64,000 nt of DNA from positions 4,524,001-4,588,000 of the forward strand of contig NC_019682.1 of the NCBI RefSeq assembly GCF_000316575.1, written 5' to 3'. Positions 43,856 to 49,445 of the stretch are shown here, piece after piece. The DNA is from Calothrix sp. PCC 7507 (GTDB lineage Bacteria > Cyanobacteriota > Cyanobacteriia > Cyanobacteriales > Nostocaceae). Position 1 is the stretch's first letter. The number at the start of each line of letters is the position of its first letter. The notes beneath the pieces were generated by a model. That model was not told where the DNA came from. It did no database searches and saw only the letters and a list, made by a program, of their open reading frames with translations. The translations under genes and the position numbers were made by a program.

Positions 43856-44674
43856 ATGACTTCTTCATTTGAGGATTTGGTGTTAGTTGCGGGTGGAACT
43901 GGTGGAGTAGGGCAGCTTGTGGTAGGCAAGCTTTTAGAAAGAGGCTTCCGGGTTCGCGTCCTCACACGCAATGCGGCAAAAGCCACAAAGATGTTTGACA
44001 ACAGAGTGGAAGTTGCTGTTGGTGATATCCGCTCTAGCAATACACTCCCAGCCGCAATGCTGAATGTCACCCATATCATCTGTTGCACGGGTACTACTGC
44101 CTTTCCTTCGAGTCGATGGGAGTTTGACTCAGAACCTAACTTGATTGAATGGGTGCAGTTGTTTTTCGACCCCAAATATAGTATCAGCAGGGCAAAGAAC
44201 AGTCCGATTAAGACTGATGCTGAAGGTGTGAGCAACTTAGTAGCAGCAGCACCAGAGAATCTCAGGCGATTCGTTTTCGTCTCTTCCTGCGGGATTTTGC
44301 GTAAATATGAGTTTCCTTGGAAACTTCTCAATGCATATGGGGTGTTAGATGCCAAACAAAAGGGCGAGGAAGCGATCATTGGTTCCGGATTGGCCTACAC
44401 TATTATTCGTCCGGGACGCTTAATTGATGGCCCTTATACTTCATACGACCTCAACACCCTACTCAAAGCAAAAACCGGAGGTAAGTTTGGTGTGGTACTG
44501 GGCAAGGGCGATACACTCCAAGGTGATGCCAGCCGCATTGATGTGGCAGCAGCTTGTGTGGAGTCTATTCTTTATCCATCAAGTGAAGGCCAAGTTTTTG
44601 AGATTGTCAATCAGGGCACAAGACCACCTGTGATTGATTGGGATAACCTGTTTTCTCAGCTAACGTCTGATTAA
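43856..44674 (+). CDS. atypical SDR / NmrA-like NAD(P)-binding protein
   Basis: 272 residues. The Rossmann signature VLVAGGTGGVGQLVVGKLL is at the N-terminus, with VRVLTRNAAKA as the NADP-recognition strand, VEVAVGDIRS, and FVFVSSCGILRK; there is no classical YxxxK, as in atypical SDRs. YTIIRPGRLIDGPY is the usual family segment after the active site. Members act as reductases, epimerases or redox sensors; in cyanobacteria relatives serve in chlorophyll or quinone metabolism. The substrate is unknown. The RBS is not strong. Confidence 0.8.
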   Translation: MTSSFEDLVLVAGGTGGVGQLVVGKLLERGFRVRVLTRNAAKATKMFDNRVEVAVGDIRSSNTLPAAMLNVTHIICCTGTTAFPSSRWEFDSEPNLIEWVQLFFDPKYSISRAKNSPIKTDAEGVSNLVAAAPENLRRFVFVSSCGILRKYEFPWKLLNAYGVLDAKQKGEEAIIGSGLAYTIIRPGRLIDGPYTSYDLNTLLKAKTGGKFGVVLGKGDTLQGDASRIDVAAACVESILYPSSEGQVFEIVNQGTRPPVIDWDNLFSQLTSD

Positions 44675-44691
44675 CAAACATCTAAATAAAA

Positions 44692-44713
44692 ACCCCTGGT
44701 CAGTACCAGGGGT
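44692..44713 (-). terminator. hairpin at the distal end of the small-RNA array
   Basis: Perfect 9-bp stem ACCCCTGGT / ACCAGGGGT with a 4-base loop. On the minus strand it is followed by TTTTTATTT, so it would terminate transcripts of the array before the SDR gene; it may also stop plus-strand transcription from the SDR gene, 17 bp after its stop codon. Confidence 0.7.
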
Positions 44714-44958
44714 ATTCATCTTTATTCCCATATATGAGAATCGCATTTGCGAGCCTCTATGAAACCTCACCCTATGCAGTAATTGCATAGTATTTATTTA
44801 AATAATGCAATTACATAGTCAGATTATCCGGAAGTCTACGCATCATGAGTCCTGACACCAAAGATAAATGAGCGTAGTTGCCCTATTTCTTTCAGACATC
44901 CGAACTATCACACTCTCCAAGATCAATACTGAAAACAGGGAATTATATCTGCATTTAG

Positions 44959-45075
44959 AAAAAAAAGGTTTAGCTGAGTGCTAAACCTCTATATATCCTA
45001 GTGCTTAAACAGACATCTTCAATTAATTTAGACTTACTCATCTTACAAATCATCTCCCTAGAGGATGTGTGTAAA
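44959..45075 (-). ncRNA. small-RNA array unit A
   Basis: Block at 45051-45070, conserved TAATTTAGAC (plus-strand reading) at 45024-45033, and terminator stem AGGTTTAGC / GCTAAACCT at 44966-44988 with eight following T on the minus strand. Confidence 0.55.
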
Positions 45076-45114
45076 TTTTCTAAACCCTGCTAGAGAATTA
45101 CTTAATTACTCATA

Positions 45115-45220
45115 AACACAGTTTTACTAAAGCAAGCATTTATATGTACTAAGCATTTACTGCACTACGATTAATTTAGACTTGTCATAACTGTGTCATC
45201 CTCCTAGCGGATGTGTGCAA
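45115..45220 (-). ncRNA. small-RNA array unit B (terminator lost)
   Basis: Block at 45197-45216 (CATCCTCCTAGCGGATGTGT in plus reading) and TAATTTAGAC at 45172-45181 are intact. The terminator hairpin expected near 45115-45137 is not recognisable, so transcription from here would run on into unit A. Confidence 0.4.
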
Positions 45221-45261
45221 ATCATTTCAAAACTGAACAAAAATAATTTGGTTACTCACAA

Positions 45262-45375
45262 GAAAAAGGTTTGGTCATGAACCAAACCTCGATCATTGCT
45301 GTGCTTAACAACGTACTAGATTAATTTAGACATACTTTTTTTACAGATCATCTTCCTAGAGGATGTGTCCCAATA
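45262..45375 (-). ncRNA. small-RNA array unit C
   Basis: Block at 45349-45368, TAATTTAGAC at 45322-45331, terminator stem AGGTTTGGT / ACCAAACCT at 45267-45289 followed by a T-run on the minus strand. Confidence 0.55.
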
Positions 45376-45434
45376 TTCTAAAAACTGGTAGCACTTTATT
45401 TAGTCAAAATATTAACTAGCTTTAATAATGGAGA

Positions 45435-45538
45435 TATAGCATTTCCCGACAAGCGTGACGTACACCCGGGTACGGCACTGCTGTGCTACTACACCTCGCG
45501 ATATAATGTTGTACTCCATCTAAATGGGAACCGCTATA
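45435..45538. mobile_element. 104-bp MITE inserted in the small-RNA array
   Basis: Inverted ends TATAGCATTTCCCGAC and, on the other strand, TATAGCGGTTCCCATTTAG. It lies between units C and D, explaining their wider spacing. No coding capacity. TA at both outer edges may be the target duplication. Confidence 0.65.
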
Positions 45539-45566
45539 TAAAAATTTCTCAGTATTTAACTTAGAA

Positions 45567-45682
45567 ATGAAAAAGGCTTGGATGTTAGCCAAGCCTCCAG
45601 ATATACCAGGTGTTTACCATATCTAACTAATTTAGACTGACTCTGCTGACAAAGCATCTTTCTATCAGGTGTATACAAAAAT
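45567..45682 (-). ncRNA. small-RNA array unit D
   Basis: Block at 45656-45675, TAATTTAGAC at 45628-45637, terminator stem AGGCTTGG / CCAAGCCT at 45574-45596 followed by a T-run on the minus strand. Its stem changed C-G for T-A relative to units A and C at matching positions. Confidence 0.55.
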
Positions 45683-45832
45683 TCTCAAAGCTGATATGGC
45701 ATGATTTTGCCAGATACATATATAAAACAAGGCTTGTTTCAACAGCAACCCTTTATTAATAAAGTGTATACAAACATCATGATTTATAATTAATATTTAT
45801 GTATAGAGGAAATATTCTATATATTCTTGTGA

Positions 45833-45940
45833 AAAAAAGACCCTAGATTTTATTCCAGGGTATATACATGTTTCTCAGGCATTTATATACCGCATATTAA
45901 ATGTAGAAAAATTTTATTGCCCCTATCTATTGCATGATAT
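45833..45940 (-). ncRNA. diverged small-RNA array unit E
   Basis: Weak hairpin ACCCT / AGGGT at 45840-45861 with a T-run on the minus strand, and a block-like CCTATCTATTGCATG at about 45920, in the right register (154 bp before the block of unit F). The TAATTTAGAC motif is lacking. Confidence 0.3.
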
Positions 45941-45987
45941 AAATATTGCAAGTTTATGGTATTGCTTAATTGGCATAATTCAGCTAT

Positions 45988-46100
45988 AAAAAAGGCTTGG
46001 GTGTCAGCCAAGCCTACAGATATACCAAGTGTTTACCATATCTAATTAATTTAGATTTGCTTTTACTACATTACATCTATCTATAGGGTGTATCCAAATA
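45988..46100 (-). ncRNA. small-RNA array unit F
   Basis: Block at 46074-46093, TAATTTAGAT at 46047-46056, terminator stem AGGCTTGG / CCAAGCCT at 45993-46015 followed by six T on the minus strand. Nearly identical to unit D from the hairpin through TTTACCATATCTAA. Confidence 0.55.
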
Positions 46101-46250
46101 TGATGAAAGCTGGTAACACCCAAATATCAAAAGTAACGCAGGAACAAACAACTGGGAATAAGCGACTGCGGCATTTAAGTTGCATATTTCATCGTATAGA
46201 GCGTTAACTGTTAACCGTCAACAAAGAAAAATGATTGATTGTGCAATGAA

Positions 46251-46450
46251 AAACTCCACCCACAATTCGATTGAGTTTTTGGGCATGGGGAAGAGTTACC
46301 TGTTTGCCCCAAGTCGGCGGGCAGCTATCCCTCTTCACCCACAATTCGATTGAGTTTCCTGCCGACTTCCAGGAATAGGCGTTTTAGCTTAAGCTGTTAT
46401 CCCTCTCCACCCACGTTCGTGCAGCGTCACGCTTTCTAGGGGATGGAGTT
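46251..46450. repeat. structured 200-bp element with nested inverted repeats
   Basis: Outer arms AAAACTCCACCCA and AGGGGATGGAGTTT, an inner stem AGTCGGCGGG / CCTGCCGACT, and two copies of CACCCACAATTCGATTGAGT, 80 bp apart. This resembles the non-coding ends of IS200/IS605-type elements in cyanobacteria, perhaps a remnant without a transposase. It splits array units F and G. Confidence 0.45.
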
Positions 46451-46480
46451 TCTCATCGCTTTCAATGAATAAGTGATTGA

Positions 46481-46592
46481 CAAAAAAGGTTTAGCATTTA
46501 GCTAAACCTTTATAGAAAGCAGTTATTCGACACACCAAAATAAATTTAAACTTACTACTAAATCTGGTCATCATCCCATAGGATGTATACAA
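46481..46592 (-). ncRNA. small-RNA array unit G
   Basis: Block at 46569-46588, TAAATTTAAAC at 46541-46551, terminator stem AGGTTTAGC / GCTAAACCT at 46487-46509 followed by six T on the minus strand. Stem matches unit A while the rest has diverged. Confidence 0.5.
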
Positions 46593-46694
46593 GCAAGCCC
46601 TCGTATGTTAGTTCAACGAAGTCGTTCTCGTTTGCAATGACATATATTTTGCATGAATTATCACTCCCGAAAAATACACAGAGTTAACAGCCTA

Positions 46695-46870
46695 GGTATT
46701 GCCCACCAAAACCATGATACGGTGGGCAGTGCCCACCCTACGTGTATTTCATAAATCAAATACTAATCCTATAGTAGGCAGGGCTATGTCTTACAAAAGC
46801 CGGATATGTTGGGCATTGCCCAGCCTACCAATACTTAAATGTGTTTGAAAATCAAATTAGATTCCTATAT
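46695..46870. mobile_element. MITE-like elements (ATTTGATTT type), second locus
   Basis: GGTGGGCAGTGCCCACC palindromes and the end sequence (on the other strand ATTAGTATTTGATTTATG) match copy 1 at 6.7 kb in reverse orientation. A second end (ATCAAATTAGATTCCTATA) follows 90 bp later, so two copies may be fused or nested here. Confidence 0.5.
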
Positions 46871-47097
46871 TTCTCATAGTATCATTGAGTCTTATTTTTA
46901 TGTAATCTAGTTTACCCGACCTCAGCATTCTGGTTTACCGTACCTTTCACAGGTACATATTTAGGTTCGGTAATCATCACGAGCCAGGTGATAAAAACCG
47001 AATTTACACTAATCTTAATTCTCAATACTATAAGAACAAAGCAAGGAATTAATCCTGCATTGATTGAAAAAAAGCAAGTCAATATACGAGGTAGGAT

Positions 47098-47538
47098 ATG
47101 ACATTAATTCGTTGGAATCCTTGGCAAGAATTTACAACTTTACAACGTCAAATTGACCAGCTATTTGATGAAAATCTATTACCATCCAATTTAGTTGAAC
47201 GAGGCTTTTCTAGAGTTCCTGCTGCTGAGTTACAAGAAACCTCTGAGGCTATTCATCTGAAACTAGAGCTACCAGGAATTGATGCTAAAGATGTAGACTT
47301 ACAAGTCACAGAAACATCTGTTTACATCAGTGGTGAGCGGAATTCTAAAACGCAAACTGAAGATAAAGGTGTGTTCAAGAGTGAATTCCGCTATGGCAAA
47401 TTTCAGCGCGTAATCCCTTTACCTACTCGCGTTGAAAACACCAAAGTCATAGCAGAATATAAAGATGGAATCTTGAATCTAGTTCTCCCTAAAGCTGAAG
47501 CAGAAAAGCACAAAGTCGTGAAAGTTAATCTGCAATAA
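47098..47538 (+). CDS. small heat-shock protein, Hsp20/alpha-crystallin family
   Basis: 146 residues; ATG preceded by GAGGTAGG. It is an ATP-independent chaperone that holds unfolding proteins in oligomers. The alpha-crystallin domain spans about residues 40-135: PAAELQETSEAIHLKLELPG, VYISGERNS, FQRVIPLPTRV and the signature YKDGILNLVLPKAE. The N-terminus MTLIRWNPWQEF is standard for bacterial class A proteins. The 500 bp upstream contain MITE sequence and no obvious CIRCE operator. Confidence 0.93.
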   Translation: MTLIRWNPWQEFTTLQRQIDQLFDENLLPSNLVERGFSRVPAAELQETSEAIHLKLELPGIDAKDVDLQVTETSVYISGERNSKTQTEDKGVFKSEFRYGKFQRVIPLPTRVENTKVIAEYKDGILNLVLPKAEAEKHKVVKVNLQ

Positions 47539-47588: not shown

Positions 47589-49445
47589 TTACTTTGATGG
47601 GTTAAGTGATTTATATAGAAAGTCAAATCTTGCTTGGACAGCAGGAGGTTTGGTGGTGAAATGGATATAAAAATTTCCTAGCTCTGCCGATTTTTCTAAT
47701 ACTTTGGCATAAACATCTTCACTACGCCATGCTGGGTCTTGAGGTGTCAATAAGTTGAGTTTAATATTTGTCAATGCCGAGGGCAAGCAATTATTTTCTA
47801 TATTCTCGGTGCAAATCTTCGCTCCTTTGTGAGATATCTGAACTATATTTCCTGAGAACACAGTTTCACCAATCTGCTTTTCATTGAGAATCATGTATTG
47901 GATGGGAATTGGTTTAGGAATGTTAAAAAATACCTCTTCTTCTCTAGGCAAAAATAGATTGTAGAATCCACCGATACCGTAAACTTCATAGATGGTAACT
48001 GGTTCTTTAATTCCTTTCATTTGTTCTTGTCTTTGCCCGCCGACTCTCACAATTGCACCTGCTGCTTTTAAAGTCGGTTCGGAAATGAGAATTTGTCCTC
48101 CTGTTGTGTAGGATTCAATGCGGTAAGTTAAGTTGACTTGGCTACCAACAATGCCGTATTTAGCACGTTTGTCTGAGCCAATATTTCCCAGAACTACGAG
48201 TCCTGTATTAATACCAATACCCATTTCTAGTTGCGGGAAGCCGAGATTTTTCAGCCTTTCATTGACAGCACCCATTGCTAATTGCATAGCACAAGCACAG
48301 GCTACAGCCCTAACAGCGTCATCTTCTCTTGGTGTTGGGGCCCCAAACAGAACCAAAATCCCATCACCCATGAATTCATTAATCGTTCCTTGGTATTGAG
48401 CGATCGCATCTGCCATATATTCAAGATAGATATTGAGGACATGGATTACCTCTTCGGCAGATAATCGCTCTGATGCGGCAGTAAATCCTCTTAAATCAGA
48501 GGTAAGAATGGTAACTTTACGTCTTTCGCCACCAAGTTTTAATGCTTGGGGGCTTTCAAGTAAGTTGGCGACGATTTCATCGCTCAGATACCGTCCAAAT
48601 ACCTGGCGAATCAGCACATTCCTTTTTTCTAAATCTGTGTTGGCTGCGGCTAAATCTGCTGTACGTTCTCGCACACGCCCTTCTAACTCTTTAGCAGTTT
48701 GGCGTAACCTCCCAGTCACCAAAGTAATCCCAGAGATTCCCAATATGGATAATCCCCCCAACATAAAAGATGTTGTTTTTATACTCTTGTTAGTTTGATC
48801 AGTGAAGTTGTCTAGGGACTGAGTAATGGTTAAAACACCCCTCACGTCTCCCACTTGCCAGTCTTTTTTGGGACTATCAGGACGGGTATTATGACAAGTA
48901 ACGCAAGTGGGCTTCATGATTACAGACTGCCCATATTGCAATAAGCCATGATTTTGGGATTTCTCTAAACGATAAAATTTTTTTTCTTCAGGATGTGTTC
49001 TCAAGTAGCTGAGGGCTTCCCGCTCAAAGTCATTTCTGGGGCCGCCTTCGGCTTTGCGCCAGGGAAACGGGTAATCACTATACATCCGGACTGACATCCC
49101 TGTCTGGTTTTCGCTGAGGATTTTTCCCAATTCAATCGCATAAGTTGCAGGGATAGGAATTGCTCCCTCCTTGATCAGGTAGTCATGAGTCAAGTTAATC
49201 CCTTTAACTTTCTTGATCCGATCGGAAACAGTAGTGCTGTATTGGCTCCATGCATCAATAATGGCTTTGGCTTGCAATTCTGCATTGGTGACCGCTTGTG
49301 ATTCAATCAAGCTAGACGAGAGACTAGACATATTTGACAAAGCTATGCCCACCCCAACGCAAAACATGAGTGTGAGAATTAGAACGGTTTGTTTTAAAAG
49401 TATCCGTAGAAACCAGTTCCAGATTTGAGAAATTAACTGCAACAT
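47589..49445 (-). CDS. membrane adenylate/guanylate cyclase with heme-type DUF3365 sensor
   Basis: 618 residues. A transmembrane helix (LLKQTVLILTLMFCVGVGIAL) near residues 17-37 precedes a periplasmic DUF3365-type sensor with PTCVTCHNTRP, a CxxCH heme-attachment motif (Cys181, Cys184, His185). A second helix (MLGGLSILGISGITLVTG) leads to a coiled linker and a class III cyclase domain: VTILTSDLRGFTAASE (metal Asp) and NEFMGDGILVLFGAP. A PilZ-like C-terminal region may follow (IVQISHKGAKI). It probably converts a redox or gas signal into cAMP or cGMP. It stands alone. Confidence 0.88.
   Translation of the reverse strand: MLQLISQIWNWFLRILLKQTVLILTLMFCVGVGIALSNMSSLSSSLIESQAVTNAELQAKAIIDAWSQYSTTVSDRIKKVKGINLTHDYLIKEGAIPIPATYAIELGKILSENQTGMSVRMYSDYPFPWRKAEGGPRNDFEREALSYLRTHPEEKKFYRLEKSQNHGLLQYGQSVIMKPTCVTCHNTRPDSPKKDWQVGDVRGVLTITQSLDNFTDQTNKSIKTTSFMLGGLSILGISGITLVTGRLRQTAKELEGRVRERTADLAAANTDLEKRNVLIRQVFGRYLSDEIVANLLESPQALKLGGERRKVTILTSDLRGFTAASERLSAEEVIHVLNIYLEYMADAIAQYQGTINEFMGDGILVLFGAPTPREDDAVRAVACACAMQLAMGAVNERLKNLGFPQLEMGIGINTGLVVLGNIGSDKRAKYGIVGSQVNLTYRIESYTTGGQILISEPTLKAAGAIVRVGGQRQEQMKGIKEPVTIYEVYGIGGFYNLFLPREEEVFFNIPKPIPIQYMILNEKQIGETVFSGNIVQISHKGAKICTENIENNCLPSALTNIKLNLLTPQDPAWRSEDVYAKVLEKSAELGNFYIHFTTKPPAVQARFDFLYKSLNPSK

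Follow-up and report, generated by a model that had tools for sequence, protein, structure and literature searches.

A conserved, ordered cluster of predicted small-RNA genes in Calothrix sp. PCC 7507

Which described small RNAs come closest to the locus analysed here? It is already known that heterocystous cyanobacteria carry tandem arrays of small-RNA genes with promoters of their own: the ~60-nt NsiR1 RNAs (RF02399), each with a promoter and a terminator, are encoded in an array before hetF. In PCC 7120, 7 of the 12 NsiR1 copies are identical; sibling copies have different targets, repressing hetF and alr3234 (PMC9045159), and their promoter is marked by the DIF1 motif TCCGGA at -35 (PMC6133370). 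Also close is 4547237r of Nostoc PCC 7120, a 51-nt RNA that was positive in Northern and primer extension experiments, has 12 homologs in heterocystous strains only, and is induced when nitrogen deficiency is prolonged and when cultures are dense (PMC4734099). NsiR8 (4547556r), likewise an sRNA of heterocystous strains only, shares the strand of 4547237r and starts 319 nt upstream of it, but its length of 171 nt and its dependence on HetR set it apart, by description, from the array reported below (PMC4734099). The accessible portion of the latter paper does not describe an ordered multi-class cluster, and in the open-access literature, as far as main texts were accessible, we found no description of eight or nine different RNAs clustered in a fixed order, most of them under one promoter type.

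Such an arrangement is what we find in the window, the whole 64,000-nt stretch analysed, which is part of a genome of 7.02 Mb in a single contig. Units, classes, order, promoter-like geometry, terminators and family range are all read directly from sequence. With a probability of roughly 70%, we interpret the stretch as a conserved, ordered cluster of about eight separate small-RNA genes, one of them decayed, most of which use one promoter type while each has its own 5' segment. The cluster looks like an undescribed regulatory toolkit.

Layout of the cluster

The array occupies the interval between an SDR-like gene and hsp20, the neighbours named in a preliminary description of this DNA and confirmed here by domain matches. 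That description had recognised five complete minus-strand units (A, C, D, F and G), and each of them indeed comprises a block, a TAAATT motif and a hairpin with a T-run; including the promoter, they extend over 44959-45070 (A), 45263-45368 (C), 45570-45674 (D), 45988-46093 (F) and 46482-46588 (G). It overlooked two elements, here called H (45887-45832) and J (about 44750-44686). Along the array, the features are as follows.

47098-47538: hsp20 (PF00011)
46541-46588, minus strand: promoter of G (block and TAAATT)
46482-46536, minus strand: unit G, predicted class III small RNA, running from a predicted +1 at 46536 through the terminator to the T-run, which ends at 46482
46046-46093, minus strand: promoter of F
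45988-46041, minus strand: unit F, predicted class Ia small RNA
45832-45887, minus strand: predicted class H small RNA, matched in 62 of 88 loci
45627-45674, minus strand: promoter of D
45570-45622, minus strand: unit D, predicted class Ib small RNA
45321-45368, minus strand: promoter of C
45263-45316, minus strand: unit C, predicted class II small RNA; its 22-nt core is found exactly in 66 named contig stretches
45171-45218, minus strand: promoter-like part of B (promoter model E 0.034)
45120-45166 (end approximate), minus strand: unit B, decayed class IV small RNA that has lost its terminator
45023-45070, minus strand: promoter of A
44959-45018, minus strand: unit A, predicted class V small RNA (RF02596 match of 38.6 bits, cut-off 35.7)
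44686-44750 (start approximate), minus strand: element J, a probable further small RNA; matched stretch 44827-44677, terminator 44713-44692
43856-44674, opposite strand to the units and downstream of them: NAD(P)-binding SDR-like gene (PF13460)

The window thus presents the classes in the order III(G)-Ia(F)-Ib(D)-II(C)-IV(B)-V(A), and the unit spacing of about 150 bp noted earlier holds for A-B-C. The block CATCCNNTAGGNNGATG occurs six times in the window with at most two mismatches, against 1.05 expected and with none of 100 shuffles reaching six, and five of these occurrences fall in the array (A, B, C, F and G). The motif GTCTAAATTAAT is weak alone: with two mismatches, it is found 17 times against 11.1 expected, a number reached by 5 of 100 shuffles. 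Terminator-like sites number 10 over both strands of 44600-47100, where 1.2 are expected.

A further unit, E, had been proposed as a diverged member. The best unit-profile match in 45700-45790 reaches an E of only 0.043, and apart from L048, a close relative that aligns co-linearly over a longer stretch, the 86 other loci gave a single 30-nt match; E was therefore dropped as a unit. Between G and F, at 46254-46414, lie related direct repeats (CTCCACCCACAATTCGATTGAGTTT twice and a diverged third), and an insertion there may have replaced class VII, which other genomes carry at that place. Beyond hsp20, an adenylate/guanylate cyclase gene with a Tll0287-like domain (PF00211, PF11845) is found at 47589-49445.

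Predicted promoter, RNA and terminator of the units

The shared block had previously been taken as part of a 108-nt RNA that also included GTCTAAATTAAT. Several features argue against this. The block CATCC..GATG and the TAAATT motif keep a fixed spacing, with GATG at -36 and TAAATT at -12; among 326 distinct units, 281 have GATG exactly 24 nt ahead of the -10 box (212 of 312 in a cruder first-match count). Near-invariant, class-specific sequence then starts within 1-2 bases of the predicted +1, 12 nt after the start of TAAATT: this offset is seen in class II (69 of 73), class I (63 of 73), class III (51 of 56) and class IV (41 of 41), while class V prefers 13 nt (11 of 16) and class VII 11 nt (8 of 8). 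As the fixed spacing is joined to conservation that sets in by class near +1, promoter DNA is a better reading of the block and GTCTAAATTAAT than RNA, so that each unit would consist of a promoter, an RNA of 53-60 nt including the T-run (A, C, D, F and G) and a terminator.

A comparison of 280 units with standard spacing is in line with this division. The first 24 nt of the RNA are 0.90 identical within a class between loci (8778 pairs), a value that is partly circular because the class-assigning motif sits inside the RNA core, and 0.30 identical between classes within a locus (390 pairs); the cores of V and VII are less uniform (0.62 and 0.69). For the promoters, the corresponding values are 0.69 within and 0.65 between classes. 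By promoter alone, the nearest unit belongs to the same class in 264 of 280 cases, a measure that is not circular, though helped by close relatives.

In A, B, C, D, F and G, the promoter comprises an imperfect palindrome, ACACATCCTATAGGAAGATGA, whose centre lies near -41 and which overlaps -35; TAAATT follows at -12. In this genome, the promoter model finds sites with E < 0.05 only in the array and at one lone copy elsewhere, the next site having an E of 0.059. The sequence bound by NtcA is GTAN8TAC; the palindrome ACACATCCTATAGGAAGATGA matches neither this nor DIF1.

At the 3' side, the terminator stems had been described as changing in compensating pairs. The changes are real and compensatory, but most of them are fixed differences between classes rather than variation within them, and the loops are variable. 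In a structure-fitted alignment, pairing is seen in 96.0% of cells and both sides change in 5 of 9 pairs, the covariation that had been anticipated; five double-changed pairs are reached by 17 of 500 shuffles and the other four measures by 0 of 500, and in slid controls the paired fraction falls to 15-60%. GGCTTGG/CCAAGCC is used by classes I (mostly), IV and VII, GGTTTGG/CCAAACC by II and VI, GGTTTAGC/GCTAAACC by III, and either GGTTTAGC/GCTAAACC or GGCTTAGC/GCTAAGCC by V. Since stems are common to several classes, the stem alone cannot carry class specificity, which makes the earlier suggestion of a specificity-defining stem unlikely; with 24-30 nt at the 5' end being near-invariant and class-specific, specificity probably lies in this segment. 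Folding of six RNAs (z -3.1 to -4.2) recovers every terminator, together with a hairpin at the 5' end of A, C, D and F; the 5' folds of G and of the lone copy, the latter folded without its first three bases, are weak.

Classes, order and distribution among genomes

Searches with a whole-unit model (R1) give six strong matches in this genome, five in the array and one at the lone copy. R1 matches were obtained in 135 of 217 genomes of the same family, covering 31 of 56 genera, each positive genome having between 1 and 9 of them. Of 388 genomes drawn from across the order, 57 are positive, every one a member of the same family. The heterocyst formers belong to this family, in agreement with the genera named below. 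For comparison, we assembled 88 loci: 20 array regions, 66 named contig stretches retrieved by exact identity to the 22-nt core of class II, and in addition the window and, from the same genome, the region of the lone copy, several of the 20 stemming from the same genomes as named ones. The named stretches come from Nostoc, Anabaena, Dolichospermum, Aphanizomenon, Nodularia, Cylindrospermum, Calothrix, Tolypothrix and others.

These loci hold 359 units, on one strand per locus. Classes, assigned by short motifs within the RNA core, comprise 116 (I), 86 (II), 63 (III), 47 (IV), 28 (V), 15 (VII) and 1 (VI) units, with three unassigned. Of 268 adjacent pairs, none violates the order III-VII-I(-I)-II-IV-V, nor does any of 198 in the 66 named loci alone; unlike the 0.90 identity, this order is not circular, though close relatives contribute to it. 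In the 66 named loci, which were selected by class II, class I is present in 59, III in 45, IV in 38, V in 21 and VII in 10. The original proposal of several related small-RNA genes, with a terminator to each unit, is thus right, but the locus is not a tandem repeat of one RNA: it holds different RNAs in order. From its place between II(C) and V(A), B can be identified as a class IV gene that has lost its terminator; that it lacks one had been observed before, and it is the sole such case among 42 distinct class IV units.

A separate check places H and J in the full order, III-VII-Ia-H-Ib-II-IV-V-J. H, between F and D, is a weak match to the NsiR1 model (24.4 bits, cut-off 39), the best in 44300-47100. 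After one of its 62 matches, overlapping a unit, was left out, the remaining 61 all lie on the array strand and upstream of class II. In all 30 loci holding two class I units, H stands between them; where there is a sole class I unit, H follows it in 20 loci and precedes it in 9, and two loci are without class I. For J, downstream of A, the profile search was positive at 23 of 88 loci; every match shares the strand of the units and follows them. The shared-promoter model gives no match at H or J, the upstream sequences of which differ in type from the shared promoter. A lone DIF1-like TCCGGA, the only one in 44601-47100, is found at 44827, about 77 nt ahead of the predicted start of J and not at -35.

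The cluster occurs in different neighbourhoods, so that the neighbours in the window tell little about function. The SDR gene is present in 4 of 86 loci, and a link to hsp20 was discarded, as no hsp20 match was found in the DNA of the 86 loci, of which some stretches end early and some genomes are counted twice.

A comparison with Rfam, suggested in the preliminary description, returned one match above cut-off within the array, that of A to RF02596 (cyano_het_sRNA); G (29.6 bits), C (29.3), D (24.8) and F (23.0) remain below. Among the 14 loci given for other genomes, 5 have one class II unit above the cut-off, and no other class reaches it. The lone copy (class VI, 1679056-1679111) scores 86 bits with RF02596 and has the same promoter, the block with TAAATTAATTC upstream, and a related terminator stem; Rfam treats RF02596 as one family. 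The RF02596 model starts within one base of the +1 we placed in the lone copy, and the RNA start GGGATGTTGTTATGCACTGGATTTA follows the same promoter in 18 of 19 regions read (17 chosen as long R1 matches, plus locus L008), the exception being the ileS region. Class VI, and with it RF02596, is probably the 4547237r of Nostoc PCC 7120, judging from size, range and the Rfam name, PCC 7120 itself lying outside our loci: the published length is 51 nt (PMC4734099), against 52 nt predicted here. If the two are the same RNA, 4547237r would start with GGATGTTGTTATGCAC. In Nodularia spumigena CCY9414, starts are predicted at 104948 (class I), 104531 (II) and 104378 (IV) on the minus strand and at 1886825 (VI) on the plus strand; the published main text on that strain mentions none of these. 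A diverged unit with a terminator, possibly a further family member, stands directly ahead of an ileS-like gene, named by eye, at 1522018-1522130 (E 0.0017).

Possible regulatory role and alternative readings

How might such a cluster work? Transcription, a common inducer and a base-pairing function are what we infer. A, B, C, D, F and G would be under one promoter type, H and J under other upstream sequences, and each gene except the decayed B would yield an RNA of 53-65 nt ending at an intrinsic terminator. The geometry of the promoter suggests a single activator or one alternative sigma factor, which would switch on the shared-promoter RNAs jointly, and by analogy with 4547237r, induction would probably occur under lengthy nitrogen starvation or at high culture density. 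The near-invariant 5' segment of 24-30 nt would then be the acting part of each RNA; by analogy with the NsiR1 siblings, it would most likely pair with mRNAs that differ from one RNA to the next. Carried further, the cluster could be a private RNA regulon, in which one dedicated regulator acting on near-identical promoters turns on as many as eight sibling RNAs simultaneously (from seven positions of the array and from the lone copy), which silence different gene sets via their 5' segments, fanning out a single signal in nitrogen-fixing filaments alongside the HetR/NsiR1 pathway and independently of it; this extension we put forward tentatively, with somewhat less confidence than an even chance.

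Complement searches in the same 10 genomes with classes I, II and III, controlled by the reversed pattern, gave no convincing mRNA targets, the recurrent matches lying in coding regions. For class II with one mismatch, 10 of 31 matches are the RNA genes, leaving 21 against 18 for the reversed pattern; in the 20 of 21 that were read, a sense site recurs in a NAD-kinase-like gene of 7 genomes, 68-74 nt past the assumed start, and another early in the coding region of a lipoprotein-like gene in 3 genomes. Both may reflect coding conservation, and pairing is also possible. For class III with two mismatches, 30 matches include 8 RNA genes, leaving 22, all read, against 38 reversed, with one site recurring mid-gene in 3 genomes (QQLFDPLRNF). 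Class I shows an excess, its 40 matches at two mismatches including 18 RNA genes and leaving 22 against 13; it is accounted for by prmA-like start codons on the wrong strand, which make up six of the 12 matches read with their loci. The names NAD kinase, PrmA and ileS were read from protein starts and not from family searches.

This outcome would also suit RNAs that are made together but bind a protein, for instance as decoys, instead of pairing with mRNAs. In favour of such a role, A, C, D and F have, in addition to the terminator, 5' hairpins whose A-rich loops resemble one another (AAGCAC, AACACC). The cores of different classes, however, are only 30% identical, which is more divergence than one shared site would seem to need, and neither G nor the lone copy folds well at its 5' end. 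We consider protein binding unlikely, and base-pairing the better account of the 5' segments.

A displaced NsiR1 array is very improbable. Tandem ~60-nt units with their own terminators and the score of H would fit it. However, the genome has NsiR1 elsewhere, in three copies at 6114254-6114664 (53.5-70.3 bits) with further matches at 842664 and 5862563, and TCCGGA is present upstream of both NsiR1 array copies that were read. No array unit reaches the NsiR1 cut-off and no unit promoter contains TCCGGA, which rules out A-G as members and contradicts this reading for the shared-promoter units. Sequence, locus and promoter all differ, the array lying here between the SDR-like gene and hsp20, and in place of identical copies there are distinct classes per position, kept across genera; the original view of a locus and an RNA distinct from NsiR1 is thereby upheld.

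We likewise give hardly any credence to very short peptides, such as one from ATG GTA AAC ACN TGG TAT in class I. Its ATG lies two bases into the RNA, the commonest reading is MVNTWYI (32 of 116 class I units), and the C/T exchange that separates Ia from Ib is synonymous. Yet there is no room for a ribosome site ahead of the ATG, stop positions and lengths vary within class I, and in the consensus sequences an ATG is missing from the core of class II, and a stop follows the third codon in class V. It is equally hard to see the array as a leader or attenuator of the gene behind it. Of 86 loci, 15 have an arginase-family gene (PF00491) downstream on the same strand, in 14 cases at a distance of 36-240 bp, with several genomes counted twice; in the window, however, the downstream gene is the SDR gene on the opposite strand, and the stretches of the other 71 loci, some of which end early, contain no arginase-family match. 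Loci with the arginase-family neighbour include L050-L053, L055-L057 and L066, and in L150 and L152 a lone class VI copy lies near such a gene.

Multi-copy sibling sRNAs are redundant in most described cases (PMC9045159), whereas the cluster has eight or nine different RNAs in one order across a bacterial family, most of them with a promoter type that within this genome is exclusive to the cluster and the lone copy. If expressed, they would constitute an unstudied regulon in the group containing the heterocyst formers, with a clue as to its expression, late nitrogen starvation and dense cultures, and a clean case for the division of targets among sibling sRNAs. Functionless mobile or palindromic repeats, for which the differing neighbourhoods of the cluster might speak, can practically be discounted, given an order and class identity fixed across genera, a single strand, so few matches per genome and the confinement to one family.
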